Part shown: one piece after another, positions 948-43,987 of the stretch
Position numbering within the stretch: position 1 is the stretch's first letter
Layout of the letters: the number at the start of each line of letters is the position of its first letter
IMG/VR virus record: IMGVR_UViG_3300044720_000043
Location: 1-49,882 of that record
Reading direction: 5' to 3' (one strand)
Source of the DNA: a virus
Length of the DNA: 49,882 nucleotides
Notes under the pieces: model-generated
What the model saw: only the letters and a program-made list of their open reading frames with translations
Database searches by the model: none
What the model was told of the DNA's origin: nothing
Position numbers and translations under genes: made by a program

Positions 948-954
948 AATCAAA

Positions 955-2439
955 ATGTCAGAAACAATCCATGATAGAATTGAAACCGAACGTGACTTAG
1001 CTTTACCAGAAGCTCGAAAATTGAGATATTTTCGGGATTATGCAAGAGGCAAACAAAAAGCCACGTTGACTGGATATCAGATGTATGTTCTTCGTGGATT
1101 ATTGACCCATAAATTCTGCGATAACATTTGCAAGAAAATATTATCCGAACTTCGAAATCGCTTGAAATTGGCTAGATTTGACGTAGCTGATGCGGCTGTA
1201 CTGGAATTTATCAGAGATTTCTGGGTTAAGAACAAGATTCCGCGAGTTGCATCGTCAATTCATTGGGCGGCACTTCGTGATGGAAATACGGCCATTGGAT
1301 TGTCGTGGACAGATCGAGTGGTCTTAACAAGAGAACGCTGGTGGAATGGCAAATATGGATTCTTTGTTGCTTATGACGACAATGATGAGCCAACATATGC
1401 CGTACGCGATTGGAAAACTAAGACAGAAAATTTGCGGACTATTTGGTTTCCCGATCATATTGAGAGATACACAGCCAAAGGCAGAGGGTGGCAGAAACGA
1501 GTCATTCAAGGGGATCCTTCTGAAGGATGGCCAAAATGGATAGATAGATCTGGTCAGCCTTTGGGCATCCCGTTTGTGCATTTTGCAAATCTTCAGGTTC
1601 CAAATGATGGGACAGGAGATGATGGTTCGGATGAACCTGATGCTCATTATGGATTGTCTGAACTTGACGGTGGGCTTCTCGGATTACAGGATGAAATCAA
1701 TGATGTGCATCGGGATGCCACATCAAGTGGTCGGTTTGCTGGGTTTCCTATGATGAAGGGAATTGGAATCACCCCTCCTAAAAATCCTGATGGGTCTGCT
1801 TCTGACATCAAATTCAGACCTGAACCAGGAGCATTTTTTACAGATACAAGCAAAGATGCTGATTTTGACATGATACAACCTGGGTCATTGGTTGAATTGG
1901 AAAGACTCCTCAACATTAAACTTCAAGCGGTTTCTCGACAATCCGGAATTCCGATGCATCTCATCACGGGTGATTGGCCATCTGGAGAGGCTTTACTTCG
2001 ATCTGAAATGCCAATGATTGACAAGGTAGAAACGATCGGAACCTCGTTTGGTCCAGCTTGGTCAACGGCAGCTTTTAAGGCAATTAGAATTCAAAACACT
2101 TTCGGTGGCGGAAATCTTGATGAAAAGGCTCTGGTTACGGCTATTTTTGAATCAGCTTCTAAGCGTGATCCTTTGACACAGGCAATTGTAGCTGAAAAAC
2201 GAGCACCGTTTGTTTCGGTTAAAGAAACCTTACGGACATTGGGATATTCTAACCAAGAAGCTGACAAAATTATTGCTGAAATGTTGAAAGAGATTGAGGA
2301 AGGAGTTCCAAGACCTCAATTAGGACAAGGAAAATCTGATACAACTCGTCCATCAGAAAGTCAAGCTGATTCAACAGATCCGGCAACTAAGGAAACTCCT
2401 AAACCTAAGAAACCTTTCGGAAAAAATAGGAAAAAATAA
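955..2439 (+). CDS. Portal protein
   Basis: 494 residues, the usual size for a siphovirus portal. The N-terminal third is a helical region with the portal-like pattern of an acidic start, a Tyr-rich stretch (YFRDYARGKQ) and repeated aromatic/Asn residues. The middle has a mixed alpha/beta wing. A long helix near residues 320-370 contains SRQSGIPMHLITGDWPSG, typical of the segment following the crown of SPP1/HK97-type portals. The C-terminus is a hydrophilic Lys/Pro tail. The dodecamer would form the DNA channel at one capsid vertex and bind terminase and the neck. Position after terL supports the call. Confidence 0.85.
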   Translation: MSETIHDRIETERDLALPEARKLRYFRDYARGKQKATLTGYQMYVLRGLLTHKFCDNICKKILSELRNRLKLARFDVADAAVLEFIRDFWVKNKIPRVASSIHWAALRDGNTAIGLSWTDRVVLTRERWWNGKYGFFVAYDDNDEPTYAVRDWKTKTENLRTIWFPDHIERYTAKGRGWQKRVIQGDPSEGWPKWIDRSGQPLGIPFVHFANLQVPNDGTGDDGSDEPDAHYGLSELDGGLLGLQDEINDVHRDATSSGRFAGFPMMKGIGITPPKNPDGSASDIKFRPEPGAFFTDTSKDADFDMIQPGSLVELERLLNIKLQAVSRQSGIPMHLITGDWPSGEALLRSEMPMIDKVETIGTSFGPAWSTAAFKAIRIQNTFGGGNLDEKALVTAIFESASKRDPLTQAIVAEKRAPFVSVKETLRTLGYSNQEADKIIAEMLKEIEEGVPRPQLGQGKSDTTRPSESQADSTDPATKETPKPKKPFGKNRKK

Positions 2440-2452
2440 GGAAAAATAGTTG

Positions 2453-2487
2453 TTTACAAGCGGAGATATACGTGTTAGTATATCTCC
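2453..2487 (+). promoter_or_regulatory. Promoter overlapping a 10-bp palindrome
   Basis: TTTACA at 2453-2458, 17-bp spacer, TAGTAT at 2476-2481 with an upstream TG (extended -10). GGAGATATAC (2462-2471) and GTATATCTCC (2478-2487) are perfect inverted repeats around a 6-base loop. The palindrome covers spacer and -10, so it could be an operator, or a stem at the 5' end of a transcript from an upstream promoter. It lies between portal and scaffold and would drive the capsid genes. The upstream ATAGTTGT is shared with the minus-strand promoter at 23919-23947. Confidence 0.6.
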
Positions 2488-2546
2488 AATGGTTCGGATC
2501 AAGTCCAATCAAGCTCACGGCCAAGCCGATAACAGGAGTCCTAAGG

Positions 2547-3269
2547 ATGCCTTTTCAGGTCTATGACAAATACGAGTCAATCCCCGAAGCTTTGGGGAGA
2601 GACAACTACCGTCAGGGTAAGGATAACAAGTGGTATCCTCAAGTTACCGAGGATCATGTGCTTGTTAAGAAGAAGCAGGAACTTCTCGCGGCCAATTCAA
2701 CATTGACCAACGATAAGACCCAGCTTGAAGGTAAGGTAGTTCCTTCAGGACATCGGATAGTTCCAGTAGCTGATGCAACTCTTTTGGAGTTGATTAAGCA
2801 GCTGGGGTTGAGTGGAGAGGAAATCAAAACTCGACTAACCGAATATCCGACTTTGAAAGAAAAAGAAACTGCAACAGCTCGTGAGTCCGCTTACGAAACG
2901 GCTGGAAAGTTTCTTAAGTACACGAATCTGGAAGCATTCAGGACTGCCATGAGGCTTTCAGGAGTGGACGTTACTTTCAAACCTGAAAAGATTGATAATG
3001 TCGATGTTCAAGTTCCGTATGTTGGCGATAAGAGACTTTCTGATCATATTGCCAATACGCCTGATTTGAAAACGATGGAACCATTCTTCAAAACTGCTGT
3101 ATCCGCGCCGGCTCCTCGAACTGAGGCCGGTTCTGGATCAAGACCTTCATCGGGTTCGTCTACTGGACAACCTCCTGCCACTCAACCTTCTTCTGATGAC
3201 ACTGGAAAGCAACCTCCCGCAGATTCGAAGTATCGGTTTACCAATCAAGGCGACGTTGCCTGGGACTAA
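2547..3269 (+). CDS. Probable capsid scaffolding protein
   Basis: 240 residues from the ATG at 2547. That start is preferred over the upstream ATG at 2472 because AGGAG sits 8 bases before it and the upstream ATG lies inside the palindrome. The N-terminal region is charged, followed by a probable coiled coil (about residues 40-65). A middle domain has repeated Glu/Lys helices, and the last 60 residues are Pro/Ser/Gly-rich and probably disordered. Size, composition and place between portal and decoration/major capsid genes fit a scaffold that nucleates shell assembly and leaves or is degraded. No protease domain was seen in the window. Confidence 0.6.
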   Translation: MPFQVYDKYESIPEALGRDNYRQGKDNKWYPQVTEDHVLVKKKQELLAANSTLTNDKTQLEGKVVPSGHRIVPVADATLLELIKQLGLSGEEIKTRLTEYPTLKEKETATARESAYETAGKFLKYTNLEAFRTAMRLSGVDVTFKPEKIDNVDVQVPYVGDKRLSDHIANTPDLKTMEPFFKTAVSAPAPRTEAGSGSRPSSGSSTGQPPATQPSSDDTGKQPPADSKYRFTNQGDVAWD

Positions 3270-3288
3270 TTAAAGAGGAGATTTCATC

Positions 3289-3708
3289 ATGGCTGCGATT
3301 GTAATGGTTAAGCCGCGTCACGTGGCTCCCGTCGGTTACGAGTGGATTGACGTTTGTGAACTCACGGAAGACGTGGTTTCTGGTAATCTTTTGGAATTCA
3401 CCGGAGTCATGAACGACAATCTTCCTCTGATGAGGAAACTGCCTGCTGGAGCTAATGCTGAGGCTGATGGCATCGCTCTGAAAGACGGGTACGCTGGACA
3501 ACGCGGGTTTGACTACGGAATCCATTGCGAGATGGATGGTTTCTCTGGAGCAACCCCAGGTGATTTGGTTTATTCGTCATCTGCAGTAGCGGGTGGATTG
3601 GATACTACACCGAATGGTGGCACTCCTGCTGCTGCTGCTCCTCCGGTCTCCTACGGGCAGGTTGGAAAAGTCATCAAGCCCAGTCGAATTCGATTCCAGA
3701 TTCGCTAA
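3289..3708 (+). CDS. Probable capsid decoration (cement) protein
   Basis: 139 residues, rich in Gly, Ala and short beta strands. Patterns such as 'VSGNLLEFTG', 'GIALKDGYAGQRG' and 'GATPGDLVYSS' followed by a GQVGKVIKPSRI ending resemble DUF2190-like capsid cement proteins, where each 'G..V' turn marks a beta-barrel strand. An Ala/Pro loop around residue 120 is probably exposed. It is placed directly before the major capsid gene with a GAGGAG-type ribosome site (AGAGGAG). Role inferred: trimer or monomer on the outer shell stabilising the head. Confidence 0.65.
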   Translation: MAAIVMVKPRHVAPVGYEWIDVCELTEDVVSGNLLEFTGVMNDNLPLMRKLPAGANAEADGIALKDGYAGQRGFDYGIHCEMDGFSGATPGDLVYSSSAVAGGLDTTPNGGTPAAAAPPVSYGQVGKVIKPSRIRFQIR

Positions 3709-3762
3709 TTTGGAATTTTGAGATAATCGTTCGGTAATTTCAGAATCAGAGGAGAGGCTACC

Positions 3763-4839
3763 ATGCCGTTTGGAATACTTGACACTCAATATATCGATCT
3801 TCCAGCAAACATCGATACTACATTCTTGGAAGGTCTTCGGACGCGTTCGGGTTATGATTTCCCGCAACTCCTTCGTCAACTCGACCAACGACTTGGTGCG
3901 TTGAACCGTGGTCTTGATCCACTTCTCGCTGCTTTGTTGGCGCCGGCAACTGTCGAAGAGTTTGCCGATACCACAATGCCGATGCCGTTCGTTATTACGG
4001 AGCGTGGAGAGTATACGATTGCTCGTCCGCAATTTGTGGAAGGTCAAGCTCACATGTTGGCCATGAGAGGTTACGACGTCACTCTCGGATTTACGGAAGA
4101 TGGTCTCGAGGATCTTTCTCTTACCAGGATTCTTACGAATGTGGATTCGCTGTTCATGGGAATGCGTCTCCTGTATCGAAAAGAGATCCTGAAGAGACTT
4201 TTTTCAGATGCTGAGATTCGAATTTCCATCAAAACGTCGGCAACATCTCCTGGTTTTGCAGGATCAGGTACGGGTGGTAACGTTTTCAGTGGCACCTATC
4301 CTGATGGTTCCGCCCTTCCCGGTGGTTACACTCATTACTACCGTGATACTGCCGCAAATCTTTTGGCCGTAATTAAATCGGCAAAAACTCGACTCGCTAA
4401 ATGGTTTTCTGGTCCGTACGATTTGATTGCTCCTCAAGCCCAGATCGATGCTATCGTGGCTTTGGGAGCTCCGTACTTCTATCGGGCCGACCAACAGTTT
4501 GTGCGGCTCGGTGCAAATTCCGATATCGCCACGGTTGATCCAAATACCTACGTGGGAATTTTGGACGAAAACATTCGAGTTCGGCAACCAATCACTGACT
4601 TCTCAAGTCCGAACATTGCAATTTTCAAAACCTTTGGAAATCTCGCCAACGGGAATCCTTTGGTATGGAAATTCGACGAAAAGAAAGGTCGGGCTGCTTA
4701 CGTTCGGTCACGTTCTATGTTTCCATTATCTGATGCAACAGTGCTTCAGACTTTTGGAATTAATGTGAACAACCGGGTAGCTGCAACTCTGATTCATATC
4801 GACGCTGCGGGTGGTTACGATCCTCCGACATTCCCGTAA
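3763..4839 (+). CDS. Major capsid protein
   Basis: 358 residues, normal for an HK97-fold shell protein. The order of segments fits: N-terminal arm with LDQRLGALNRG, an E-loop-like stretch around residues 75-95, a long spine helix (LTRILTNVDSLFMGMRLLYRKEILKRLF), a Gly-rich loop, then a P-domain-like C-terminal half with a final beta segment. The gene uses more C- and G-ending codons than its neighbours, consistent with high expression. AGAGGAG precedes the ATG. It is the most abundant virion protein expected here. No long N-terminal delta domain is visible, which agrees with a separate scaffold gene. Confidence 0.85.
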   Translation: MPFGILDTQYIDLPANIDTTFLEGLRTRSGYDFPQLLRQLDQRLGALNRGLDPLLAALLAPATVEEFADTTMPMPFVITERGEYTIARPQFVEGQAHMLAMRGYDVTLGFTEDGLEDLSLTRILTNVDSLFMGMRLLYRKEILKRLFSDAEIRISIKTSATSPGFAGSGTGGNVFSGTYPDGSALPGGYTHYYRDTAANLLAVIKSAKTRLAKWFSGPYDLIAPQAQIDAIVALGAPYFYRADQQFVRLGANSDIATVDPNTYVGILDENIRVRQPITDFSSPNIAIFKTFGNLANGNPLVWKFDEKKGRAAYVRSRSMFPLSDATVLQTFGINVNNRVAATLIHIDAAGGYDPPTFP

Positions 4840-4863
4840 AGATCGTTTAAAGGTTTGAACTTT

Positions 4864-4901
4864 GCGGGATGGGGTTGTTGCTTGCGGATAGCCTCTCCCG
4901 C
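4864..4901 (+). promoter_or_regulatory. Hairpin after the major capsid gene
   Basis: GCGGGA (4864-4869) pairs with TCCCGC (4896-4901), with GG/CC continuing inside after a small bulge. No T tract follows. Between the capsid gene and the next ATG it could lower readthrough or protect the capsid mRNA 3' end. Confidence 0.4.
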
Positions 4902-4921
4902 TCCAATTTAAGGAGCTAATC

Positions 4922-5389
4922 ATGGCATTACGTGGAGACTTTTCCAGCAAAGACCTGCTGGAAAAAGAAGGTTACGAAACTGAATCCGAAGTCGCCGAAG
5001 CCACAGATGAAGAGCTTCTTTCGATTGATGGAATTGGCCCGGTGAAATTGGATGAGATTCGAGCTGTAGCTCCTTTCACTGAATCTCCAAGTTCTACGGG
5101 ATCTGGTGAGACTTCTGGGAAAACCACTACAAAAGAACTTGGTCCGTCAACATCGACTGAACCGACCGCTCAATCTTTCCAATCCCAAACATCGAAGGTC
5201 TCGAAAGACCAGATCGATCCAACTACAGGGCAGGAGCTTCCAAAAGGAATTGTTCGTAATGTCCGTGGAACATTGACCGCAAGTAGTACGGTTGATCAGG
5301 ATGACATGGTTTCTCCTGAGCGAGTCAAGGCAGAACATAAAGCCAGAGTTCGTCAGGCCGGAGAAAAAATCGCGGCCTTGATGGAATAA
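4922..5389 (+). CDS. Helix-hairpin-helix protein of the head module
   Basis: 155 residues. Residues about 15-45 hold two short helices and LLSIDGIGPVKLDEIRA, a textbook helix-hairpin-helix motif (IGP/VK hairpin) of the kind that contacts the DNA backbone non-specifically. The rest is Ser/Thr-rich and probably disordered, ending in a charged helix. GGAG lies 6-9 bases before the ATG. Its place after the major capsid gene suggests a virion or assembly factor that touches packaged DNA or sits at the neck; that role is inference. It is not long enough to be a ligase or nuclease. Confidence 0.6.
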   Translation: MALRGDFSSKDLLEKEGYETESEVAEATDEELLSIDGIGPVKLDEIRAVAPFTESPSSTGSGETSGKTTTKELGPSTSTEPTAQSFQSQTSKVSKDQIDPTTGQELPKGIVRNVRGTLTASSTVDQDDMVSPERVKAEHKARVRQAGEKIAALME

Positions 5390-5399
5390 AAGGAACAGT

Positions 5400-5786
5400 G
5401 TGTCATTTGATCCGTCGTTACCAGCAGTTCGTGACAGACTCCGTCTTCAATTAGGAGATACTAGCGGAGACGAAGCTACGGAATTGTTGTTAGATGACAT
5501 TTATGATGCGGTATATGCTTACAACGGCAATAGCGAACCTAAAACACTGGTTGCTTTAGCAGAATCGCTTATTGCCAAATTCAGTCAAGCGGCTTCACGC
5601 ATTAATCTTGGGGATATGGAATTCTCTTGGCGTGACCGTATGATTGCTTGGAAAGCTATACTGGTCAAATTTGAGGGGATTTCGACTGGGGACGGTGGAG
5701 GTGGTTTCGTTATTCGAAGGCCCGAACGTGATGAGGATTCTTCTGAATATCGACGCCCATTTATGATGGAACCTTGGTGGACTTAA
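5400..5786 (+). CDS. Head-tail adaptor (connector) protein
   Basis: 128 residues from a GTG at 5400. Mainly helical: VRDRLRLQLGDT near the N-terminus, then LVALAESLIAKFSQAASRI and WRDRMIAWKAILVKFEG. This is the helical pattern of HK97 gp6/SPP1 gp15-like adaptors that ring the portal. The C-terminus is a Gly-rich then Arg/Pro tail, as in adaptors that dock into neighbouring subunits. First of four short genes between capsid and tail tube, the usual site of the adaptor. Confidence 0.6.
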   Translation: MSFDPSLPAVRDRLRLQLGDTSGDEATELLLDDIYDAVYAYNGNSEPKTLVALAESLIAKFSQAASRINLGDMEFSWRDRMIAWKAILVKFEGISTGDGGGGFVIRRPERDEDSSEYRRPFMMEPWWT

Positions 5787-5789
5787 ATT

Positions 5790-6140
5790 GTGGCATCTCC
5801 ATTACAAGGTCAAATCTTAAATGCCGTTAATTCGATTAGACCATATTTGTATGGATCAGGATTCAGAATCCAATTGCTTAAGTTTAACGGAGTTGTTAGG
5901 CAATATGATCCGTTGGTCGAATTAACCAAAGATTTCATTCCCTCTTTTGATAGGTCAGGCAATATTACTCTGATGGTTATGTCAGATGAACATATTGCCA
6001 GTCTGAGAGAAACAACGGATTTGGTCTTTGATGGGTGGGTTTACCAGTTAACTGAACCGGCTAAACCGGAACAAGGCCCGATTCTTCTTTGGAAGGCTAC
6101 TGGACGACCCAGAGGAAGCCGATGGATTCCTGAGCCGTAA
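5790..6140 (+). CDS. Head closure (stopper) protein candidate
   Basis: 116 residues from a GTG start 3 bases after the adaptor stop. Beta-rich with alternating hydrophobics (FRIQLLKFNGVVRQYDPLVE, ITLMVMSDEHI, FDGWVYQLTE). Size and position match head-tail stoppers that plug the portal after packaging. Its last base overlaps the next ATG. Family membership was not provable by eye. Confidence 0.5.
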   Translation: MASPLQGQILNAVNSIRPYLYGSGFRIQLLKFNGVVRQYDPLVELTKDFIPSFDRSGNITLMVMSDEHIASLRETTDLVFDGWVYQLTEPAKPEQGPILLWKATGRPRGSRWIPEP

Positions 6141-6535
6141 TGCTAAATCTTAGCATGACAATTGAAGTTCCTGATGGTGTCATGCACCTCTCAAGAGAAC
6201 TTCAAAGTCCGATTAACGAATTAAGTGATGCTTCGGCTCAGTATTTATCAGACGCCTACAAATATTATGTAGTGGTAGTAGGGGCGGTAGATACCGGAGA
6301 ACTTCTCTATTCCATTCACGTTGAAGAAGGCCCGAGTGGTGGAGATTCTCATCGGAAATATGTGGTAGCTGGAGCTAATCATGCTAAGGTAGTTGAAATC
6401 GGTTGGATTGAACGAGGTCAAGGTCAAGCATCATATCCAGGTCGATTTCCTGCGCAAAAAGCCATTGAGTTTCTTTTAGAAGGGCTTCAAAACAATCGGG
6501 TTGTTGATGCTTTGAGATGGCGATTAGGTAAATGA
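6140..6535 (+). CDS. HK97 gp10-like neck/minor tail protein
   Basis: 131 residues. A helix (ELSDASAQYLSDAYKYYVVV) is followed by VDTGELLYSIHVEE, a YVVAGANHAKVVEIGW strand pair, and SYPGRFPAQKAIEFLLEG. The order 'DTG.L..SI', 'Y.V....HA..vE.G' and 'pgr.p..kAie' is characteristic of the HK97 gp10 family, which links the stopper to the tail terminator. Its 3' end overlaps the next start by 4 bases (ATGA), indicating translational coupling. Confidence 0.75.
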   Translation: MLNLSMTIEVPDGVMHLSRELQSPINELSDASAQYLSDAYKYYVVVVGAVDTGELLYSIHVEEGPSGGDSHRKYVVAGANHAKVVEIGWIERGQGQASYPGRFPAQKAIEFLLEGLQNNRVVDALRWRLGK

Positions 6536-7077
6536 CTCCAGAACAATTAGTAACACTCACGGAACAGGTCAATGCAAGGCTTTACCAAATTATCAGTGAG
6601 AAGTTAGTTCCAGTTGATGTTACTCCTGGAGAGAAAGTTCCAAAGGTATTTGACAGGCTAGTGGTTGATTCGGATCATAGAGCATGGGCAAATATGCTCC
6701 GTTCAGATCGGCATATCGAGAATCAAACCGGTCAGGATGTGAAGCAAGTTCATGCTATTATGATTTATCCGAAAGGCATGCGTGATTATCCTGACAATAC
6801 TGTCAGAAGTATGCCATGGCAACTTGATTTTGGAATTGATAATTTCTATCAGGATTATCCAGGAATAATTAGTGACAATCCTGGTTTTAGACAGAACAAG
6901 GAAATTGTTCTAACAGCTGCAACACTTTGGAGTACTATACCATTTGGAGTTACTGGAGTTAAACGAATTATTGGATGGCGTGAAACTCGAGTGTTGTCAA
7001 GAATGGGTGATGCCATGGTTCGACAATCAATGTCGGTTATTACCATAAGATTGCATCCTGCACAAATTCCTTCTTAG
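6532..7077 (+). CDS. Tail terminator/completion protein candidate
   Basis: 181 residues. An N-terminal helix (LVTLTEQVNARLYQIISEKL) and alternating beta strands (VHAIMIYPKGM, MPWQLDFGIDNFY, MSVITIRLHPAQ) fit the tail terminator fold, a hexamer capping the tail tube. Located between the gp10-like gene and the tail tube gene, exactly where terminators are found. It starts inside the preceding gene's end. Assigned mainly by position. Confidence 0.5.
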   Translation: MTPEQLVTLTEQVNARLYQIISEKLVPVDVTPGEKVPKVFDRLVVDSDHRAWANMLRSDRHIENQTGQDVKQVHAIMIYPKGMRDYPDNTVRSMPWQLDFGIDNFYQDYPGIISDNPGFRQNKEIVLTAATLWSTIPFGVTGVKRIIGWRETRVLSRMGDAMVRQSMSVITIRLHPAQIPS

Positions 7078-7087
7078 GGAGATTGAT

Positions 7088-8155
7088 ATGCCGATACGTT
7101 TTCAGTTAACCGATCTTCAGGCGATTATGTCCAAGACGCCTGAATCTGCCATCAATACTCCTAAGCTTCTGACAGCAGAACATAAGGGCATGCGGTTGAA
7201 TGCCATGATGCCACCTATTCCTGAACTTCAAAAGAATCCAGGAACGATGATTGGTGATGGTCAAGAGAGGTCTCAAAAACTTCGTCGAGGTTGGTGGAAT
7301 CCTGGACAAATTGCTATCGGTGGTCAGCTCAATAATGATACGGCTGCAAGCCTTGGAGCACGGAATCTTAGCGGAACTCGAACGGCAACTGAGGTTGTAG
7401 CATTATCTGGCGCTTATGACATCATCACAAACCAGCAAACCAAAGCTCAGGGTCGAATTCCAAAGCTAACTACTATGGCATTTTTCTTGGGTGGTTATGA
7501 TTTCTTATGGCCATCAATGGGTGTTAATAATTTTGAAATTTCTTTTGAAGGGGACGGAGACGTTAATTTTTCTTCAGCTCTGATTAATACTGGATATTGG
7601 AAAAGATTAGCTGACGTCGTTCCTGCAATCGTTCCTCCTGATGCAGGAGAACATAAGTTGTTCCATCCTGCGGCGACAAAGGTTACGTTTTCTGATGGAA
7701 CCACGATTGATTATGCAAACGAAGGAGACCTGCTAAGTGGTTCTTGTGGAAACGCCAATAACATGGTAGTTCGTCAACTTCCAGGTGATCCATTTATTAA
7801 TCCGGCTGACCGACTTTCTGGAGCTTACGCTCGAGACATTCATCGTGGACGCCGGGATCCTTTTGCTCGATTGAAAGTGGCAATGGATGCCTCTCTCTAT
7901 GAATTCACCTTAGCACGATCTGGACAACCAATCACGTCTCTCACCTACCTTTTTGTCAGTGACGAAAAGATTGGCGCAACGGCTTATGACTATGAATTTG
8001 AGTGGAAATTTCCACTTTGTGAAGTTCAGGCCGTTGCTGCTGACACAGACGGAGATGATGCTGCATTGAATTTGGAATTCTACGTGAAGAGAGATGCTGT
8101 TTCAGGTGGATTTGCCATTCAACGAGTTCGGACCGACAACAGTACTTTGGAGTAA
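7088..8155 (+). CDS. Major tail tube protein
   Basis: 355 residues, beta-rich. It has features of large tail tube subunits: an ordered central region (FFLGGYDFLWPSMGVNNFEISFEGD appears as strands), many Gly/Asp turns, and a C-terminal AADTDGDDAALNLEFYVKRD strand pair ending the beta sandwich. It precedes the tail assembly chaperone and tape measure, the invariable order in siphoviruses. GGGAGATTGAT gives a clear ribosome site. It is longer than a minimal tube protein, so it may carry an extra surface domain. Confidence 0.65.
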   Translation: MPIRFQLTDLQAIMSKTPESAINTPKLLTAEHKGMRLNAMMPPIPELQKNPGTMIGDGQERSQKLRRGWWNPGQIAIGGQLNNDTAASLGARNLSGTRTATEVVALSGAYDIITNQQTKAQGRIPKLTTMAFFLGGYDFLWPSMGVNNFEISFEGDGDVNFSSALINTGYWKRLADVVPAIVPPDAGEHKLFHPAATKVTFSDGTTIDYANEGDLLSGSCGNANNMVVRQLPGDPFINPADRLSGAYARDIHRGRRDPFARLKVAMDASLYEFTLARSGQPITSLTYLFVSDEKIGATAYDYEFEWKFPLCEVQAVAADTDGDDAALNLEFYVKRDAVSGGFAIQRVRTDNSTLE

Positions 8156-8159
8156 AATC

Positions 8160-8672
8160 ATGACCGAAGATCAAAAAGCGGGCCATCCGCTTGACAACCA
8201 GAACCGTATCGAACGGGCAATTCAATTAGAGGGATCGAAAGATCCCGATAAATTCAAGATGCCTGATGGCCGAACTTTGACAGAAGTTCGTAATGATGTT
8301 GCCATACTTCATGCGGACGAATATCAAAAGGAAATTCAGATGGTTGCTCACCGAACCAGAGAATCTTCGATTCCTGAATTTACCAAAGGTAAAGATTTAG
8401 TGATGACTAGAGTTGGAAACCTTGTTGATGTCACTTCTCCTCCTCCAATCGAAGATAATGTGACAATGGCCACATCTCGAACTACCTCTGAAGACATTGC
8501 AGCAGGAGTTATTAAATCTCCGGGATCATTTGAACCACCCAAATCCATGGAAGCTACTGGATCGTTTTCCGAACCTCTCGGTATGGCTAATGGCACATCT
8601 AATACAACTCCACCTGTCCCTGGAACTGTAAAGGCTTCAGAACCTGGTTCTATCGAAAGACCTGCTAAATAA
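8160..8672 (+). CDS. Unknown protein downstream of the tail tube gene
   Basis: 170 residues from the ATG at 8160, chosen because GGAG lies 8 bases upstream and it follows the tail tube stop; an earlier in-frame ATG at 8094 is inside that gene. The N-terminal half is charged and helical (NRIERAIQLEGSKDPDKF, TEVRNDVAILHADEYQKEI). The C-terminal 70 residues are Ser/Thr/Pro-rich and probably disordered. No family recognised. Its place suggests a tail accessory or chaperone partner. Confidence 0.6.
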   Translation: MTEDQKAGHPLDNQNRIERAIQLEGSKDPDKFKMPDGRTLTEVRNDVAILHADEYQKEIQMVAHRTRESSIPEFTKGKDLVMTRVGNLVDVTSPPPIEDNVTMATSRTTSEDIAAGVIKSPGSFEPPKSMEATGSFSEPLGMANGTSNTTPPVPGTVKASEPGSIERPAK

Positions 8673-8680
8673 TGACCTAA

Positions 8681-8761
8681 AAGATGGTACTACATAGGCA
8701 TATAACTATATTCATGACATCTACCATCTTAACTCTCAACGCGACCTACAATACCTAGTGG
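8681..8761 (+). repeat. Three-copy hairpin/AACGCGACCTA element, copy 1
   Basis: AAGATGGTA (8681-8689) pairs perfectly with TACCATCTT (8722-8730). Seven bases later comes AACGCGACCTA (8738-8748). Copies 2 (19169-19238) and 3 (36006-36085) share the stem, a 36-38 base gap between GATGG and CCATC, the 7-base gap and the 11-base box. It begins 9 bases after the upstream stop codon. CTAGTGG after the box is shared with copy 3 only. Confidence 0.85.
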
Positions 8762-8776
8762 TGAGTAAAATAGTAG

Positions 8777-8805
8777 TATACACGTGGAAATTTTTGTGTT
8801 ACTAT
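8777..8805 (+). promoter_or_regulatory. Promoter inside the tail module
   Basis: TATACA at 8777-8782, 17-bp spacer, TACTAT at 8800-8805 with TGT before it (extended -10). The -10 and spacer are the same as those of the minus-strand promoter at 23298-23326. It faces the structured stretch that ends in a terminator at 8959. Confidence 0.6.
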
Positions 8806-8811
8806 TAGTTT

Positions 8812-8959
8812 CGTGATTAAGGTAGCCTCCGAACTGCCTGACGCACATACGAGGGGCTTGGGCCTGCCACACACCGACTTAGGTCCCTCGTCCGCACTAT
8901 AGCGGCGCTTTCGCATGATACCCGCATTTGGCTCAAGGCTAGATGACGGGATTTTTTTT
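8812..8959 (+). ncRNA. Candidate small structured RNA (about 150 nt)
   Basis: The stretch between a promoter (8777-8805) and an intrinsic terminator (8921-8959) holds no plausible ORF and is richer in G+C than its flanks. Helices seen by eye: GGTAG (8821-8825) with CTGCC (8834-8838, one G-U); ACGAGGG (8849-8855) with CCCTCGT (8885-8891), perfect; CCGC (8892-8895) with GCGG (8902-8905); and the terminator stem. No tRNA pattern (no T-loop, no CCA). It could be an independent sRNA, or a 5' leader that attenuates the tail assembly chaperone gene starting at 8984. Confidence 0.55.
8921..8959 (+). terminator. Intrinsic terminator
   Basis: CCCGCAT (8921-8927) pairs with ATGACGGG (8943-8950, one bulged A), followed by A and eight T. 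It ends the candidate small RNA 25 bases before the next gene's ATG, so readthrough would have to supply the chaperone mRNA. Confidence 0.7.
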
Positions 8960-8983
8960 ACATGAATCTTCAAAGGAGATACC

Positions 8984-9841
8984 ATGACTGCAGAAACAAC
9001 AGTAACCGACAATCGATCCTCTGAAACAGTTAGACCATATCCAGTGAATAAACCATCATTCAAGGTGATGGATCGATTTCAAGATGGGGATACCAAGTAT
9101 TCCTTGATTTGTGAATTTAAGAGATTGGATTCTGATAATTTCCGGATTCTTCTCAAGAAGGAAGAGGCTACTGAGAGAATCACAGAAACAATGACCAAAA
9201 ATCGGTCTCGAGATCGATTAAGTGTGGATGAGGCACATTCTGAATTTTTCAATTCTTTAGCACTTCAGGGGATACTAGAATCCAACGAAGATGATGCGAA
9301 ACCGGAAATACTCAGTTACCAGCAAATGACTGAGATTGTTGTCGAACGGAAAATTGCTCTCAACGTTAAGTATTTGGATTGCAAGGCGATAGTCAAACAG
9401 ATTGTTGGAGCTGGAAAGCATGACTTTTTGTTTGAGAAACCCGGTCACATGGTTGTTGAATTCATGATCGGAGACCCTGAAGCACCTGATTTCAGATTGT
9501 TATTGAAGTTTCGAAGACCTGGACAAAATCGCCGGTCTAAATTCAGGGAAGGTTTTGCATATGGAATTACTGATCGTGCCGGCGATCTTCCAGTTGTAAA
9601 AACTATCATTGATTTATCCACTGGTGTTCATTTCATGGACGAATACTTTGAAACGGTTATCGTTGATCCAAACTATTCGAAAGTCGTTTTTCTTAAAGAC
9701 GATGGTACATTGGATCACGAATATGTTGAAGGAAACGACGATGACCGAAAACTTTTTCTGAAGTATTTCAATCCCCATTTTAAGGTGGAACAATCTGGAG
9801 CAATGGTTGCTACGTTTAGTAAATCAGGCCGGGAATCATAG
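8984..9841 (+). CDS. Tail assembly chaperone, short form (gpG-like)
   Basis: 285 residues, immediately before a second frame and the tape measure gene, the universal place of tail assembly chaperones. AAAGGAG precedes the ATG. Mixed alpha/beta; the end LFLKYFNPHFKV resembles the C-terminal part of long chaperone G proteins. The frame ends in TAG at 9839-9841. A coding-looking -1 frame begins just before this stop and runs to 10134, so a G-T fusion made by frameshifting is likely. Longer than lambda gpG (140 residues). Confidence 0.6.
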   Translation: MTAETTVTDNRSSETVRPYPVNKPSFKVMDRFQDGDTKYSLICEFKRLDSDNFRILLKKEEATERITETMTKNRSRDRLSVDEAHSEFFNSLALQGILESNEDDAKPEILSYQQMTEIVVERKIALNVKYLDCKAIVKQIVGAGKHDFLFEKPGHMVVEFMIGDPEAPDFRLLLKFRRPGQNRRSKFREGFAYGITDRAGDLPVVKTIIDLSTGVHFMDEYFETVIVDPNYSKVVFLKDDGTLDHEYVEGNDDDRKLFLKYFNPHFKVEQSGAMVATFSKSGRES

Positions 9842-10134
9842 AGGCTCTTTCGGCGTGGTCTTACACGTGGCACAAGGCAGACAATCCAGAAAAAGTCAAG
9901 CCTCCGAAAGAGCCATTTCATGTTGCCGTGGCCGAAGCATTGTGGTGGGATAGTCTTATTCAGAACAACTTTGTTCGGGCAAGTCCCCAAGAACTTGAAG
10001 GGATGGAACCAGGAATTATTTTTGCTCTAATGGGTTTGTGGCAAGGAAGAGCAAAGTATAACCAAGAATTAGTTCCAGATTCTTCTAAGAAATCGAAACC
10101 CAAAGTTTCTTCAAGAAAATCAGATGCAAGATGA
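9823..10134 (+). CDS. Tail assembly chaperone frameshift extension (gpT-like)
   Basis: Frame open from 9823 in -1 relative to the upstream gene. The coding-like text starts at once (IEALSAWSYTWHKADNP...) and continues into EALWWDSLIQNNF, LEGMEPGIIFALMGLW and a Lys-rich tail. The first normal in-frame start (GTG at 9928) would discard this well-formed N-terminal part, so synthesis by frameshift from the preceding gene is the better reading. Within the permitted overlap (9823-9841) no classical slippery heptamer is seen; GGCCGGGAATCA is the only candidate region. The end overlaps the tape measure start by 11 bases. Confidence 0.6.
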   Translation: MRPGIIEALSAWSYTWHKADNPEKVKPPKEPFHVAVAEALWWDSLIQNNFVRASPQELEGMEPGIIFALMGLWQGRAKYNQELVPDSSKKSKPKVSSRKSDAR

Positions 10135-13100
10135 TTACGACGTCGTTATAGGCGTAAACATCAATGACCATACTGCTGCTGGGGCCGCTTCAGTTCGTGG
10201 CAACATTGGAAAGATGTCTGAAGATGTCAGAAAATACGGAGACAAACAAGCAAGAGAATTCGGACGAATCTCCAAAGATATCTTTAACCAAACCGATCAA
10301 CATGTTACTAGATCCGCTAGCTCAATGATTAGTCGTTTGACTAGTGTTTTCGAAACGAACAATTTTCTTTTTCGGCAACTTGCTCGACAGACCGTTGGCA
10401 ATGTTGGTTATGTTGCAGCTGGTGTTGCTAAATTAGGGCTTTCATATAACCGATTTGGAAAAGACACTGAAGATTCTGGACATAAAGCAAAGGTAGCTTT
10501 AGAAACCATTAAATCCGCTATAGCTAGTTTAGGAACAGATCCATCGGCATTTCCAGCCGCTTTAAGGGCCACAAAAGATTTATCCGCCGCATACGAAGGT
10601 ATGGGTAAATCTGGGCAAGTTGCATCAGTTAAAGCTGGGGCCGCATTAGAAGATGCCGTTCATAAACGTGTCCTAAATCTGCAAACAGGATTGGTTAAAG
10701 CCCAAAATGATTTTGAAAAACTTAAGGTCGTTGGCAGTAAGAGTTCTGAAGCACTACGGGACAAGATAAATGATATTTCGGCATCTGCAAGACATTTGCT
10801 GGGTGGTGCAAATGTAGATGCTCCGTTTTTCAAATCTTTTATCAAGGCTAGAACTGAACAGGAAAAATATCTACTGGTTCTAGAAAAACTTGGGCCTAAA
10901 GCCGCAATAGCTTATTCTGGAAATCAAGCAGCCGTTGAAAAGCTTTCGTCAGCATATGTCAGATTAGAATCTAGAGCAGCTAAATCCTTAAACGTTCAGT
11001 CAACTGGAATCTCAAAAGCGGCTATAAGTGTTACAAACTACAAGAAAGAATTAAGCCAACTTGAAACGGCAGTCGCTAGTGCGGCAGGAAGCACTGACGA
11101 AGCCGCAATCGCAACTAAAGGCTTCTCGTCAGCCATGGTCGCTACCGGGGGAGTTGTGGCAATTGTGGTTGCTGCAATTCTTGCCGCAATAGCGGTTTTT
11201 GCTATTCTTACGATTGGAATTTATAAATCGTCTACGGCTGCTGCGACTTATGGAGATGAAATTTACAAACTGGCCTTGTCTACAGGATTAACGGTTAAAA
11301 CCCTGTCGACCTTAAGTGTCATTGCAAAGGAAACATCTACGGATGTAGATTCTCTTGCTAAGACATTTACAAGAACCCAAATTCAGATTCAGCGTGGATT
11401 AGATAAACCTTTTTCTGAAGCTGGAAGAGCTTTAAGAACATTGAAGATTAATTTCCAAGAACTCCGGAAAGCAAACCCAGATCAACAAATTTTTACACTG
11501 GCAAAAGCTTTCACGGAATTGAATAACCAAAATGTTCGAGCAACGGTTTCGCAGCAATTGTTTAGTCGTGATGCTGAACGACAGTCAAAAATGTTGGAGC
11601 AAATTGCTAACGGATTCACTATTGCCCAACAAAAAGCCAAGAAATATGGACTTGAACTTGATGAATCCGGAGCCGTTAAGGCTCATCTTGCTACCGTAGC
11701 TACTATGGACCTCAAACTTGCTTGGGAAGGTCTATGGGTTAGTTTGGGAATTAAGATTCTTCCTCAGCTTACGTCTCTGATGGAAGGATTAGTTAGCTTA
11801 ATTCTTAAATCTGGTGGGGCTTTTGAAGTTTTTGGTAAAATTGCCAATTTCGTTTTGCGGGAATTTCGAATCAATATAGAGGTTCTGAGAGAAGCTAAAT
11901 GGTACGAATTACTTCCTCCAATCTTTCCGGGTGCTATGGTGATGCATCGTAGGAAAGCTGAAGGAGTCATTAATCAAGAAGACAAAGATCGGGAAATCGA
12001 GTATGCTCAGAGAATTGCCGAATTAAAGAAACGTGGATTACAAGGAGATGATCAATATGCTGCTGGCAAGGGCGCAAAATCTCCTATGGATCGGCTTGAA
12101 GAACAGGTAAAACGCATCCGATTCGAAATTGAAGCCTTACAAAAAGTTGGTTCAAAGGAATTCAAACTTCGTTTTGAATTGGAAGAACTTCAAAAAGTTA
12201 AAGCTGGATTCGAATCCATATTCAAGCTTCGGAATGAGATGGGTTTGATCTTGGATGAACCTGTTCCACAATTCAGAGTATTTGGAACCCCTGAACAACA
12301 AAGACAGGATCTTGCTAATATTGAATCTTATGTCAAGCAGATGGATCGAATGAAATCCATCTTCGAAGGGGTTCGTAAAGTATCTAATGAACAAAGTGAC
12401 GCTTTGGCTGAATTAGCTCGAGTTCAGCAGGAAGCATTACTTCCAGTAGTTGATGCTGGAACATTGGCTGAAATTAAGTATCAGACTGCCATTCGAGACA
12501 GGGCTAAATCTGAAAAAGACTTAACAGCCAGTGTAATTGCCGAATCAAGACTTCGGAAAGATGCTGTTCAAGATGAAGTCGGATCGACTCTTAAAGCCTA
12601 TCAAACTTTACAAAGAGACCTTGGTCGGTCTCAAGATACCATCAGAGAACAACGAGCTCAAGATGCCATATTCTTGAGAATCATGAGAGGGGACCGAGAA
12701 ACTGAGCAAGGAATTCGTCAAAGCATTCAAGATCGGATGGGAACTATAAATGCTCCAGTAGTTCCAACCGAACTTATGACTATTGCGGCACATGCCGCTA
12801 CAATTGACCTAAATGTGGCTGCAATTGCTGAAAAGATCGGAGCTAATGCAAGAAATACTTCCACTTCAACAATAAGTTCTCCTGCATCTGAGACTAGTTA
12901 TGCCAGGTCAAAACTGGTTCGTCGTAATCCCGATGGTACCGTTACCATGATTTATGACGACGATTCAGCTGATGCCATTAAATCTCAAACTACGGATCCT
13001 GGTTATTTAAGAGAACGGATCATAACCGAAGCTCGACAAAGAGCCAGTGGAAATCGAACTGCGGCTGATCGCAAAGCGGTTCAAGATATTCTGGACAATC

Positions 13101-14968
13101 AGATGAAGCTTGAACAGACTTTGATTGATTTGGATACTGATTATCTAGACAACTATATTCGGATGCAGGTTGCCAGACGTGAAGCTGCACGCGCCACAGT
13201 TATTTCTATAATGTTGTTGGAAAATGATTTAAGAGATCTGGAAAATACTAATTCACAACTTTATAAGGATACTTGGTCAAATGCAGACAAAGCTCGGTTA
13301 GAAGCTCATGCTGCATTAAAAGCAGACATTATCAAACTGCAAAATGACATTGCTAATAACGGAGCTGATCAATCTGACAGAGAAAGAAAAGCCCATTTTC
13401 AAGCTATTCGAGATATTCAGGAAGCTTCTAATCAGGCAAGAGAATCCATGGTTTACAACCAGGTAAAGATTGCCGATGCTACTGTCTATCATGCCGAAAT
13501 TGCCAATGCTAAGGTAACTGAATTTTTGGCTAATCAAAGAAGCATTACCGATGTTATTGCCGATTATAAGGTGGCAGTTGTTGACAAAACCTTCTCAATA
13601 ATCGACATGGCATTGGATAAAATAACCAGTAAGATGGGTATACTGGGAAGCTTGGTAAAAGATCTTTTGAGTGGTTTTATCAGATTAGCCCTATCTCCAT
13701 TCTTCAAACTGTTGATGGGTGGAGGTAACGGAGGTAATTCTTTTGGTTCATTCAGAAATGTCGTTCAAGGAAATTTTGGTCCAAACAACAATTCTCAAAC
13801 ATCAGGTGGATCAAATCTTCTTAAGACCTTATTACCAGGATTATTTGGTGGAGGCGGAAATTCGGCTTCTTCAGCTTCTATGCCTGGATCTGTTTCGAAT
13901 GTTACTTCCGCCACCCCATGGCGTGATTGGGCTGCCAAAAATTTCCCAATAGATGCTGGATTAGCAGGAACTAAGTACGGCTCGTCATTCGGTGGTCTTG
14001 GAGTTGCCTTTGGTCAAATGGCTTCTATGCTAGGTCTCACAACGGGAGCTGGACTTGGTGCAATGGCTGGCGGACAATCTAAGGCTGGTCAAATACTTGG
14101 AATGCTTGGTGGTGCCGGCATTGGTGGTGCTCTTGGTATGGCAGCTTTCACTGCTATGGGAGGATTGGTTTCTCCGGCTCTTGCCGGATTCATGGCAATC
14201 GCTGGTCCAGCTGTTCTGATTGCAGGTCCGCTTCTAATTGCTGGTGCTATTATTCTGGCAAAGAATAAAGCTCGGCAGATGGAAGAAAAGAAACGAAACG
14301 AATGGGGTACTGACGCTCAGGCAAATATTCTTCAACTTTTGGCTCAAGCTCGAACTGGTGATATTACCGTGGCTCAAGCTAAAGTTGAATGGGATAAAAT
14401 CGGAGCTGCTTACATGGCTCAGGTCAATACTCTAAAAGATTCTAAGACTCGGAGAAATGCCACTCTTTGGTGGGAACAAGTTTCAGGTCGGGTAGTAGAT
14501 CCGGGTGGTAAGACGATCGCTATCTGGCCATTGATTGAAGAAGCCGCTAGAGCTTCAGAGGGAAGAGCTAATGACCGAGTTCGAATGAATCCAGTGTTTG
14601 CTTCAGGAGGAATCAGCCACATAGACCAGCTGATTAAGGTAAGACCTGGGGAAGGGGTCAAGTATCCTGGAACTAACGTGGTTCATACTATTTTTGGAAA
14701 AGATTTGGGGTATGATTCTCAGTACATGTATGCTCCAAAGGGAACTAAGATTCTGAACCGGCAAGAGATGGCTACGGCTGAACCTCATCAACATGGAGGA
14801 ACGGTAGGAGAATCGGCAAGTTCTGAAGAATCCATTCTACATATTGATTCTTTGGAGGTAAATCTTGACAAAGACGGATTAGCAGAAGCTGTAATTAAGA
14901 GTAGGAAATTTAAGAAAGCCGTTATTCACAACTATAAATTGGGGGTCAAGGAAAGAAAAATCGTCTAA
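10124..14968 (+). CDS. Tape measure protein
   Basis: 1614 residues, the longest gene in the window. Long helical and coiled-coil stretches rich in Ala, Gln, Lys and Glu. A hydrophobic segment at about residues 335-370 (VAIVVAAILAAIAVFAILTI), and a Gly/Ala-rich hydrophobic region near residues 1300-1400 (GMLGGAGIGGALGMAAF; GPAVLIAGPLLIAGAIIL). The C-terminal part is globular. By the usual relation of about 1.5 angstrom per residue a tail of roughly 200-240 nm is implied (inference). No peptidase or lysozyme motif was recognised. Acts in the tail lumen, setting tail length and entering the host envelope. Confidence 0.92.
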   Translation: MQDDYDVVIGVNINDHTAAGAASVRGNIGKMSEDVRKYGDKQAREFGRISKDIFNQTDQHVTRSASSMISRLTSVFETNNFLFRQLARQTVGNVGYVAAGVAKLGLSYNRFGKDTEDSGHKAKVALETIKSAIASLGTDPSAFPAALRATKDLSAAYEGMGKSGQVASVKAGAALEDAVHKRVLNLQTGLVKAQNDFEKLKVVGSKSSEALRDKINDISASARHLLGGANVDAPFFKSFIKARTEQEKYLLVLEKLGPKAAIAYSGNQAAVEKLSSAYVRLESRAAKSLNVQSTGISKAAISVTNYKKELSQLETAVASAAGSTDEAAIATKGFSSAMVATGGVVAIVVAAILAAIAVFAILTIGIYKSSTAAATYGDEIYKLALSTGLTVKTLSTLSVIAKETSTDVDSLAKTFTRTQIQIQRGLDKPFSEAGRALRTLKINFQELRKANPDQQIFTLAKAFTELNNQNVRATVSQQLFSRDAERQSKMLEQIANGFTIAQQKAKKYGLELDESGAVKAHLATVATMDLKLAWEGLWVSLGIKILPQLTSLMEGLVSLILKSGGAFEVFGKIANFVLREFRINIEVLREAKWYELLPPIFPGAMVMHRRKAEGVINQEDKDREIEYAQRIAELKKRGLQGDDQYAAGKGAKSPMDRLEEQVKRIRFEIEALQKVGSKEFKLRFELEELQKVKAGFESIFKLRNEMGLILDEPVPQFRVFGTPEQQRQDLANIESYVKQMDRMKSIFEGVRKVSNEQSDALAELARVQQEALLPVVDAGTLAEIKYQTAIRDRAKSEKDLTASVIAESRLRKDAVQDEVGSTLKAYQTLQRDLGRSQDTIREQRAQDAIFLRIMRGDRETEQGIRQSIQDRMGTINAPVVPTELMTIAAHAATIDLNVAAIAEKIGANARNTSTSTISSPASETSYARSKLVRRNPDGTVTMIYDDDSADAIKSQTTDPGYLRERIITEARQRASGNRTAADRKAVQDILDNQMKLEQTLIDLDTDYLDNYIRMQVARREAARATVISIMLLENDLRDLENTNSQLYKDTWSNADKARLEAHAALKADIIKLQNDIANNGADQSDRERKAHFQAIRDIQEASNQARESMVYNQVKIADATVYHAEIANAKVTEFLANQRSITDVIADYKVAVVDKTFSIIDMALDKITSKMGILGSLVKDLLSGFIRLALSPFFKLLMGGGNGGNSFGSFRNVVQGNFGPNNNSQTSGGSNLLKTLLPGLFGGGGNSASSASMPGSVSNVTSATPWRDWAAKNFPIDAGLAGTKYGSSFGGLGVAFGQMASMLGLTTGAGLGAMAGGQSKAGQILGMLGGAGIGGALGMAAFTAMGGLVSPALAGFMAIAGPAVLIAGPLLIAGAIILAKNKARQMEEKKRNEWGTDAQANILQLLAQARTGDITVAQAKVEWDKIGAAYMAQVNTLKDSKTRRNATLWWEQVSGRVVDPGGKTIAIWPLIEEAARASEGRANDRVRMNPVFASGGISHIDQLIKVRPGEGVKYPGTNVVHTIFGKDLGYDSQYMYAPKGTKILNRQEMATAEPHQHGGTVGESASSEESILHIDSLEVNLDKDGLAEAVIKSRKFKKAVIHNYKLGVKERKIV

Positions 14969-15591
14969 TGCCAAGAGAAATTCGACCAGAATTAGAGGAT
15001 TTATTAGCAACTCCTCATTGCGGGGCTCATACAACATTGGATATTATTCTTGTTGATGAATCAGAATGGTTCTTTTCAACTGGAGAAATTTTTGTAGATC
15101 GGTTTGACAAGACTCAACAATATTCGGCTCGTCTTGAAAGAGACGTTGGTGAATTAGACTTGAGTCTTGGAGTTGACGTCGACATGCAGGAATTCGAAGT
15201 AACCAATGTTGATCCTACATTTGGTCAAAAACAGACAAAAGCTATTCGAGAATTGGACGAAGCTAAAGCAGTTACTGGCATATTGTTCATAGATCCAGAC
15301 TTTCCTTCAACAGAAGCTATTTGGGATGCAAAGATGCCTGGTAAACTTTTCATTGGAGAAATCTCTGATTCTTCGGTTTCTATGACTCTGATGTCATCTA
15401 TAGATTCGGTTGTTGTTTCTGGACGAACAATTGCTGATGAATTCCAATGGAGAGAACCAATTAGCACTGTTCCACTTTTAGACCCCAATGATTCTATTCA
15501 TCCTGGAATTGGTACAAGCGGGGGAAATCAAGTTGGCAACTGGAAAGGTCGCTACGGAGACGAAATAATTTCACCTTACCTGATGATGTAA
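14968..15591 (+). CDS. Distal tail-region protein
   Basis: 207 residues, start ATG overlapping the tape measure stop by one base. Beta-rich: TTLDIILVDESEWFFSTGEI, LERDVGELDLSLGVDVDMQE and KLFIGEISDSSVSMTLMSS. Directly after the tape measure gene, where distal tail or hub-linking proteins are encoded. No named family recognised; assignment by position and composition. Confidence 0.5.
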   Translation: MPREIRPELEDLLATPHCGAHTTLDIILVDESEWFFSTGEIFVDRFDKTQQYSARLERDVGELDLSLGVDVDMQEFEVTNVDPTFGQKQTKAIRELDEAKAVTGILFIDPDFPSTEAIWDAKMPGKLFIGEISDSSVSMTLMSSIDSVVVSGRTIADEFQWREPISTVPLLDPNDSIHPGIGTSGGNQVGNWKGRYGDEIISPYLMM

Positions 15592-15606
15592 AGAAAGGAT
15601 ACTACC

Positions 15607-17499
15607 GTGGATCGAATTTCAAATTTCTGGGAATGGAAAAACCCCGTCACAGCCAAGAAAACCGTATTGGTTTTTCAACCAATTAGTGGTCCATCTCAAT
15701 CGCGGAGTTTTGGCGACAATGTCCCAATTCATGAATGGGAACTTGGCGCTGCTGACAGTTCTCATGAAGAGTTTACAGAAGTGAAAGCTTTCTGGGATTC
15801 TCACTACCCAGGAGATACTTTTGAACTTTTTGATCCACAATCTGAAGAGATCAGAATTTTTGAATTTGATTCAGATTTCAGTTTACACTATAATGATGCA
15901 GATAGCTATTCGTGGAGTGTCAGAATCAGAGAGGTCTTTCCGTACGAAGTCATCATTCCTCTTGCTCCTGATGTTCCAGAACTTTCATTGGCCCTTGGCA
16001 GCGTGCTTATAACAACAACGCCGACGCCCAGAGCGACTGGCTATCGCGTCGAACGCAGTCCGACAGGTGAGAATGACTGGTCGCTTGTAGGAGGTTCAGA
16101 GGTAAGTGTTACAACAGGAGAAGCTCTTGCATTAGAGGACAACCCAGAAGATGGCATATGGGATTACCGTGGACGTGCTTTCAATGCATACGGAGTTTCC
16201 GATTGGACTGGAGTACAAACCATTGAAGTGACTGGCCCGTTTGAAGCGAATGATTATTCAGGATTGCTGAAATGGCGCAACCCTCTGGCCATTGCACTTT
16301 CCGATGCGGTAGCCGTTGCATCGTTCCCGGACTCAAGCCCGGCCAATGACCCATCTGTTCAAGCCGACGCCGCAAAGCAGCCAATTTTTTATCTGACTGG
16401 CGGGCAAAATAACAAGAGGCGCGTCGTGTTCGACGGTGCAAATGACTTCCTTGAAGATACACGGCTAACGGCTCTGCGAGAACTCTATATTCTCGTGAAA
16501 CACGCAACAGGAACATCTGCTAACGGCCCGGTAATGATTGGTGACGACTCTACCTATCCCTTCCTAGGTGAGTCTGGCACTGCACTTTTTGCCTCGGGTC
16601 CGGGAGGCGCTCAAGCACTTTATGGCGATAGTCAATTCTACGTAAATGGTCGATTAGCCAATTACACTCTTGAAAAAAAGTCGACAGACTGGACTCTGTA
16701 TTCGATTGTCACTAGCATTGCAGCTGCTGAAAAATACCTCTTTAATGACCGCAATGCATACTTTTATAATGGCGAGTTTGGAGAAGATATTCATTACAGC
16801 GATGTACATGGAAAGACAGACCGACACGCCATCAATGCCCACTTCGCTGATCCTGACGGCTGGGCAATGGATCTGGCCGTGCAGTCGCAGCCTCCAGCAA
16901 ATACGAAGTTCTTGTTCTCAGGAAATTCGATTCTGCAAGAGGGCACCATTGTTATGCTCCTCATGCAAGCCATGAATCCGGCAAGCAGCCCACCATTCAA
17001 CTGGGCCGCTGCAGGAGCTACAACTCAGGATATGGCTACCAATGCTTCTGGCAGTGAAGATGCTGGCTTTGATGGTTCAAAAGATTTCAACGTTCTTGTC
17101 GGGTGGGAAATCTCCAACGACTTGGCAAATACCGACCTAGGAAGTACAGATACAACCACAGCGGCAAACGCAGCCTACACCGCCATTGCTAACTATTATG
17201 CGGCTCGCAAGGCTGCACATCCTACGGAAAAAATAGTTGTTATACCATGCCTGCCTCGTAACTCAAATCTGCATGCCTCTATGACTGGGGCCGATTTTGA
17301 GTTCATGATGAATATCGTAAACGCCGGTCTAGTTGACAACTGGGCAACGTTTGGCGATGTGCTAGCTGACTTCTCAGCGTTCGCGGCGATATATCTTGCC
17401 AGCCTCTCAGCTGATGGAACGCACCCCAATGATGGCGGAAAGAAAGAAATTGCACGGGCACTGATTTCGGCTGTGGGTGCTCTGAATTTAGGTATTTAA
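15607..17499 (+). CDS. Tail protein with SGNH/GDSL hydrolase domain
   Basis: 630 residues, GTG start after AAAGGAT. Residues 1-120: minor-tail-like beta domain. About 125-210: fibronectin III-like (TGYRVERSPTGENDWSLV). About 215-430: concanavalin/LamG-like (VVFDGANDFLED). About 434-630: SGNH hydrolase with FSGNSIL (Ser441, Asn440), AGATTQDM, GWEISND (Gly499, Asn504) and ADGTHPND (Asp603, His606), i.e. all four blocks. Such domains de-esterify glycans; here probably host surface polysaccharide during adsorption. From about 15985 G+C and codon use rise abruptly, marking a horizontally acquired receptor-binding part fused to a resident N-terminus. Confidence 0.8.
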   Translation: MDRISNFWEWKNPVTAKKTVLVFQPISGPSQSRSFGDNVPIHEWELGAADSSHEEFTEVKAFWDSHYPGDTFELFDPQSEEIRIFEFDSDFSLHYNDADSYSWSVRIREVFPYEVIIPLAPDVPELSLALGSVLITTTPTPRATGYRVERSPTGENDWSLVGGSEVSVTTGEALALEDNPEDGIWDYRGRAFNAYGVSDWTGVQTIEVTGPFEANDYSGLLKWRNPLAIALSDAVAVASFPDSSPANDPSVQADAAKQPIFYLTGGQNNKRRVVFDGANDFLEDTRLTALRELYILVKHATGTSANGPVMIGDDSTYPFLGESGTALFASGPGGAQALYGDSQFYVNGRLANYTLEKKSTDWTLYSIVTSIAAAEKYLFNDRNAYFYNGEFGEDIHYSDVHGKTDRHAINAHFADPDGWAMDLAVQSQPPANTKFLFSGNSILQEGTIVMLLMQAMNPASSPPFNWAAAGATTQDMATNASGSEDAGFDGSKDFNVLVGWEISNDLANTDLGSTDTTTAANAAYTAIANYYAARKAAHPTEKIVVIPCLPRNSNLHASMTGADFEFMMNIVNAGLVDNWATFGDVLADFSAFAAIYLASLSADGTHPNDGGKKEIARALISAVGALNLGI

Positions 17500-17502
17500 A
17501 AA

Positions 17503-19146: not shown

Positions 19147-19168
19147 AACGGGTTACAAGGTTTTATAA

Positions 19169-19238
19169 AAGATGGCATCTAATTGTGCTTATGTTGATAT
19201 GCTCAGTTATCTACCATCTTATACCTTAACGCGACCTA
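19169..19238 (+). repeat. Three-copy hairpin/AACGCGACCTA element, copy 2
   Basis: AAGATGG (19169-19175) pairs with CCATCTT (19214-19220), then seven bases and AACGCGACCTA (19228-19238). It lies 22 bases after the last structural gene, at the meeting point of convergent operons, and overlaps the last codons of the minus-strand gene at 19219. The inner TAATTG/CAGTTA pairing extends the helix. Confidence 0.85.
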
Positions 19239-24066: not shown

Positions 24067-24106
24067 TTAGTTTCGATGGAAAAATCACTTTTGGAGGTTA
24101 TACCAA

Positions 24107-43957: not shown

Positions 43958-43987
43958 AAATTGCGGTTCGACCATAAAACTTGAGAA

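Follow-up and report, generated by a model that had tools for sequence, protein, structure and literature searches.

Why is a run of tightly packed structural genes interrupted in a single place, and what does the interruption encode? The DNA analysed here (the window) is a virus record of 49,882 bases, possibly a fragment, with a first gene resembling a terminase end. The virus is a tailed phage, as its genes for a portal (phrog_104), a major head protein (phrog_3990) and a tape measure (phrog_8462) show; it also has genes for a family A DNA polymerase, a primase/helicase, a thymidylate synthase and a uracil-DNA glycosylase. From 955 to 19,146 all of the genes lie on the plus strand and are tightly spaced, with the sole exception of a 311-base gap at 8673-8983, flanked by what is probably the major tail gene region on one side and a probable tail chaperone gene on the other (Table 1). 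An original prediction placed in this gap a candidate small RNA gene, complete with promoter and terminator, that would give a discrete transcript during virion production or attenuate the tail assembly chaperone gene that follows.

The two flanking genes are named mainly from their position, with a Neck1-like connector gene at 6140 (phrog_5, E = 0.00064) and the start of the tape measure gene at 10124 as landmarks. For the predicted chaperone the position fits, and the Pfam match is sub-threshold; structure predictions of both flanking proteins, made without alignment, gave mean pLDDT values of 31 and 36 and were not used. Separately, an open frame at 9823-10134, in the -1 register of the probable chaperone gene, overlaps the end of that gene by 19 bases, an arrangement (8984-9841 / 9823-10134) that resembles two-part tail chaperones; no canonical slippery heptamer is seen for a -1 frameshift joining the two. 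An inverted repeat, AAGATGGTA / TACCATCTT, with its arms 32 bases apart, lies at 8681-8730, immediately beyond the upstream gene's stop codon.

Table 1. Coordinates of the predicted unit, its neighbours and the phage's promoter family (positions in the window).
Feature	Position	Strand	Remarks
Upstream gene, probable major tail protein	7088..8155	+	Named from position only, without family match
Possible operator, dyad AATAGTA / TACTATT across the promoter	8769..8806		Seen directly
Promoter, phage-family member	8776..8805	+	(G)TATACA 8777-8782, N17, TGn 8797-8799, TACTAT 8800-8805
Predicted small RNA, ~147 nt	8813..8959	+	Start 8812 or 8813; GC 0.598; z = -3.5; folds on + strand only
29-codon GTG frame, rival near-leaderless peptide	8813..8902	+	Start 8 bases past the -10
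Hairpin 1, loop CCUCCGAA (anti-Shine-Dalgarno-like)	8820..8839	+	Closed by 8813-8815/8844-8846
Hairpin 2, 14 pairs, 15-base loop	8849..8891	+	Pair probabilities mostly 0.98-1.0; z = -2.9
Hairpin 3, 4 pairs	8892..8905	+	Pair probabilities 0.81-0.99
Intrinsic terminator	8921..8959	+	13 pairs (8921-8933/8937-8950), one bulge, 3-base loop, then A and T8 at 8952-8959
Shine-Dalgarno (AGGAG) and ATG of downstream gene	8974..8986	+	Read from sequence
Downstream gene, probable tail assembly chaperone	8984..9841	+	Precedes tape measure gene; Phage_TAC_4 E = 0.15
Family promoters	24055, 31087, 34499, 37756	+	Mostly intergenic gaps outside structural module
Family promoters	43218, 47409, 48270	-	Mostly intergenic gaps outside structural module
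Additional family promoters	33623; 23930, 23309	+; -, -	Mostly intergenic gaps outside structural module

Judged by the generic sigma-70 consensus alone, the promoter at 8777-8805 is marginal: it scores 8/12 plus an extended -10, and an 8/12 site with TGn arises in 4.9% of shuffles of the gap, which is AT-rich here. A plain promoter scanner missed it because the score is only 8/12. The phage has a promoter family of its own, TTYMCC/GTATACC-N17-TGGTGATATAAT, in which TTTGGTGATATAAT occurs in three exact copies (24053, 31085 and 37754) plus variants, and seven sites have a common pattern: their -35 resembles TTYMCC or GTATACC, and 17 bases separate it from a -10 resembling TGGTGATATAAT. A matrix was built from these seven sites, with 8777-8805 left out of the training. 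By this matrix the promoter originally read as TATACA-N17-TACTAT with an extended -10 is present and ranks 11th among 99,704 positions on both strands; its score is reached by 0.02% of shuffles of 8673-8850 (p = 0.0002, a value that is somewhat optimistic since the family was defined after the resemblance between sites had been noticed). The sites ranked 8 to 10, likewise outside the training set, are also in intergenic gaps, and within the structural module (1-19,200) no other site attains such a score.

The site's -10, TACTAT at 8800-8805, is weaker than the family motif; the nearest sister promoter, at 23309 on the minus strand before leftward genes, has GTATAC and TGTTACTAT in register with the 8777 site, and TTAGTTTCG, right after the -10, is found again only at 24067, behind another family promoter. 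The sister promoters mostly precede non-structural genes, both small genes and leftward replication genes. The ATAGTA-N10-30-TACTAT dyad that spans the promoter has a single occurrence in the window.

The right end of the unit is a clear terminator with eight T, as had been predicted. The hairpin has an energy of -16.4 to -17.5 kcal/mol (z = -4.85), and a compact hairpin of -15 kcal/mol or lower before at least eight T is found in none of 261 whole-window shuffles; before at least six T, such a hairpin is expected 0.008 times per strand. A pattern scanner omitted it, presumably since that scanner disallows a bulge. The ATG of the next gene is near, as claimed, at 24 bases after the T8. This gene has a good Shine-Dalgarno sequence and no convincing promoter of its own, and the chaperone and tape measure genes would for that reason need readthrough or antitermination; the terminator likely just steps down late transcription. 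The window's only other compact terminator with at least six T lies at 43986-44022 on the plus strand (AGGAGCGGGG...CCCGCTCCT, then ATTTTTT).

Could the terminator be all that matters, stepping down late transcription after a highly expressed tail gene, with the preceding sequence functionless as RNA? Terminators stand at matching places in Corndog (PMC4351075) and LUZ100 (PMC10134795), and the bulk of the folding excess described below falls in the terminator; however, this explanation accounts neither for a family promoter just before a GC-rich island nor for the island itself, and we consider it unlikely.

The island is pronounced. The RNA segment has a GC content of 0.598, against 0.412 for the genome, and only 0.24% of windows are this high; none of the other gaps examined exceeds 0.485. 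A GC-rich island within an AT-rich gap is a classic mark of structured RNA. As predicted, the segment is well paired: folding z for 8812-8962 is -3.4 to -3.9 on the plus strand and 0.04 on the minus strand, and only 2 of 332 evenly spaced plus-strand windows fold equally well. Much of this excess is supplied by the terminator; with the terminator removed, 8812-8915 still folds better than shuffled sequence, but only mildly (p = 0.048 for energy, 0.028 for ensemble diversity and 0.0125 jointly). One structure dominates the predicted folds, with inner stem pairs mostly at a probability of at least 0.94 (0.94-1.0 in hairpin 1, with outer pairs at 0.8).

The loop of hairpin 1, CCUCCGAA, is complementary to Shine-Dalgarno cores, and we speculate that this CCUCC loop could bind Shine-Dalgarno sequences. 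A search of the phage's start regions for pairing targets of the loops gave nothing better than shuffled loops, and any pairing target of the RNA is a matter of speculation. A second and stronger structured intergenic element is present at 34276-34455 on the plus strand (z about -7.7), where a stem of ~15 pairs (AATCTGGCCGTTAAG / CTTAACGGCCAGATT) encloses a loop with internal folding and is followed by ATTTTTT and preceded by another hairpin; it has no Rfam match of note and no DNA relative.

The segment is nearly free of open reading frames, as had been claimed, with two exceptions, neither of which has the phage's codon usage. The 29-codon GTG frame scores -0.77 and a 102-codon minus-strand frame -0.08, like random sequence, against +0.18 to +0.28 for the late genes (baseline at random offsets, -0.23 +/- 0.32); by this measure the frames within the segment do not look coding. 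A near-leaderless 29-residue peptide, with or without RNA function, followed by the terminator, is nonetheless a fair rival in kind, because start codons lie 7 to 9 bases past the -10 of sister promoters (31105, 37774, 34517 and 23289, that at 34517 being GTG), which suggests that these promoters would give leaderless or near-leaderless mRNAs. Against it are the codon score, far under that of the late genes, the failure to find a similar peptide in phages or in solved structures, and the fact that 29 open codons in a row are no surprise in GC-rich sequence; we regard it as improbable. The GTG at 34517 opens a cysteine-rich frame of 54 residues.

Very improbable, lastly, is control of the chaperone gene in cis by a leader or attenuator in which an input signal sets termination against readthrough: the terminator does stand 24 bases before a gene with no convincing promoter, and IsrK of Gifsy-1 is a phage small RNA for which regulated readthrough at the terminator is known (PMC4825925), but neither truncated nor full folds of the segment contain an antiterminator, a single structure dominates, and no known riboswitch family in Rfam matches, so that the proposed attenuation by alternative folding is left unsupported.

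Searches for relatives place the phage as an orphan among the sequences searched. ARAGORN gives no tRNA or tmRNA match in the segment, in agreement with the reported lack of tRNA features, and Rfam gives none for the region at gathering score or at E up to 10. Phage and plasmid sequences searched by blastn gave no match, or at E up to 10 only chance ones, and tblastn with capsid and portal gave zero matches in 50,697 phage records. Viral contigs were also searched under the guidance of the chaperone, tail, polymerase, capsid and tape measure proteins, and this recovered no relative, a result that covers fairly close relatives only, these searches depending on exact short peptides. Alignment of the helicase yields distant contigs only, 20 of which are without portal and chaperone genes. 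A covariance model built from the single sequence recovers just the segment itself in the window and has no hit in 50 distant viral contigs that share the helicase alone—absence that says little, because these contigs are distant—and exact hairpin pattern searches gave no matches or chance matches.

We propose that 8776-8959 is a small RNA gene, noncoding and autonomous, with a terminator that would also step down late transcription, and give this reading a probability of roughly 0.65. The sequence supports well a discrete unit of this kind, with a promoter directly before the RNA and an intrinsic terminator at its 3' end. Promoter motif, predicted fold, terminator and position are read from the DNA itself, and we infer transcription, size, timing and step-down from them: RNA polymerase would start at 8812-8813 from the phage-family extended -10 promoter, and a folded RNA of ~147 nt would be made, ending at the strong terminator at 8959. 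Production of this RNA would probably be independent of the late operon and probably not linked to virion production, because the sister promoters serve genes mostly outside the structural module; the expectation that it is made during virion production finds no support. The RNA's most likely role would be that of a small regulatory RNA working by way of its exposed loops, and late transcription into the chaperone and tape measure genes would be cut or stepped down by the terminator at 8959.

Phage small RNAs are little catalogued beyond a few model hosts. Recovery of the phage's own promoter family is what makes a complete transcription unit readable here from sequence alone, and the unit offers a testable case of a probable noncoding gene in a tail module under a promoter type that otherwise serves genes elsewhere.

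Phage morons carry their own promoter and terminator and have deviant base composition. The unit at 8776-8959 is like them in all of these respects and in its placement between two tail genes, and unlike them in that its product seems to be RNA rather than protein. A bolder possibility, a moron with RNA as its only product—a structured RNA of a new class, expressed from an early-type promoter within the tail module and acting in trans on translation, by Shine-Dalgarno masking, or on virion assembly—is in our view quite unlikely.

Among known phage-encoded small RNAs, VpdS, PreS, SprY, OOP and others (reviewed in PMC12197685) provide the closest frame of comparison. The RNA at 8813-8959 resembles VpdS, PreS, SprY and OOP as a short RNA with its own promoter in a phage genome and an intrinsic terminator at its end, here predicted from sequence; it differs in being without a sequence relative and in sitting in the tail module. 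The mycobacteriophages D29, L5 and StarStuff have intergenic noncoding RNAs of unexplained function, detected by RNA-seq, and the abundant one among them is without a canonical terminator (PMC5712189). Those of D29, L5 and StarStuff are, like the probably noncoding RNA predicted here, intergenic, noncoding and phage-borne; they are located elsewhere in the genome, and the RNA at 8813-8959 is predicted from sequence.

IsrK, of the prophage Gifsy-1, is a small RNA ended by a terminator, and the gene just downstream needs readthrough (PMC4825925). Both features have counterparts here, the terminator-ended RNA as a prediction and the need of the directly downstream gene for readthrough as a likely consequence; unlike in IsrK, no alternative fold or pairing of short and long forms was found for the 8813-8959 RNA. 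In mycobacteriophage Corndog an intrinsic terminator with a stem of ~12 pairs and a one-base bulge lies to the right of the major tail gene (PMC4351075), and in LUZ100 a terminator follows the capsid gene (PMC10134795). The terminator described here is at a corresponding place and shares the bulged stem with Corndog; unlike in either phage, it has a longer T run, and a folded GC-rich stretch with a family promoter lies before it.
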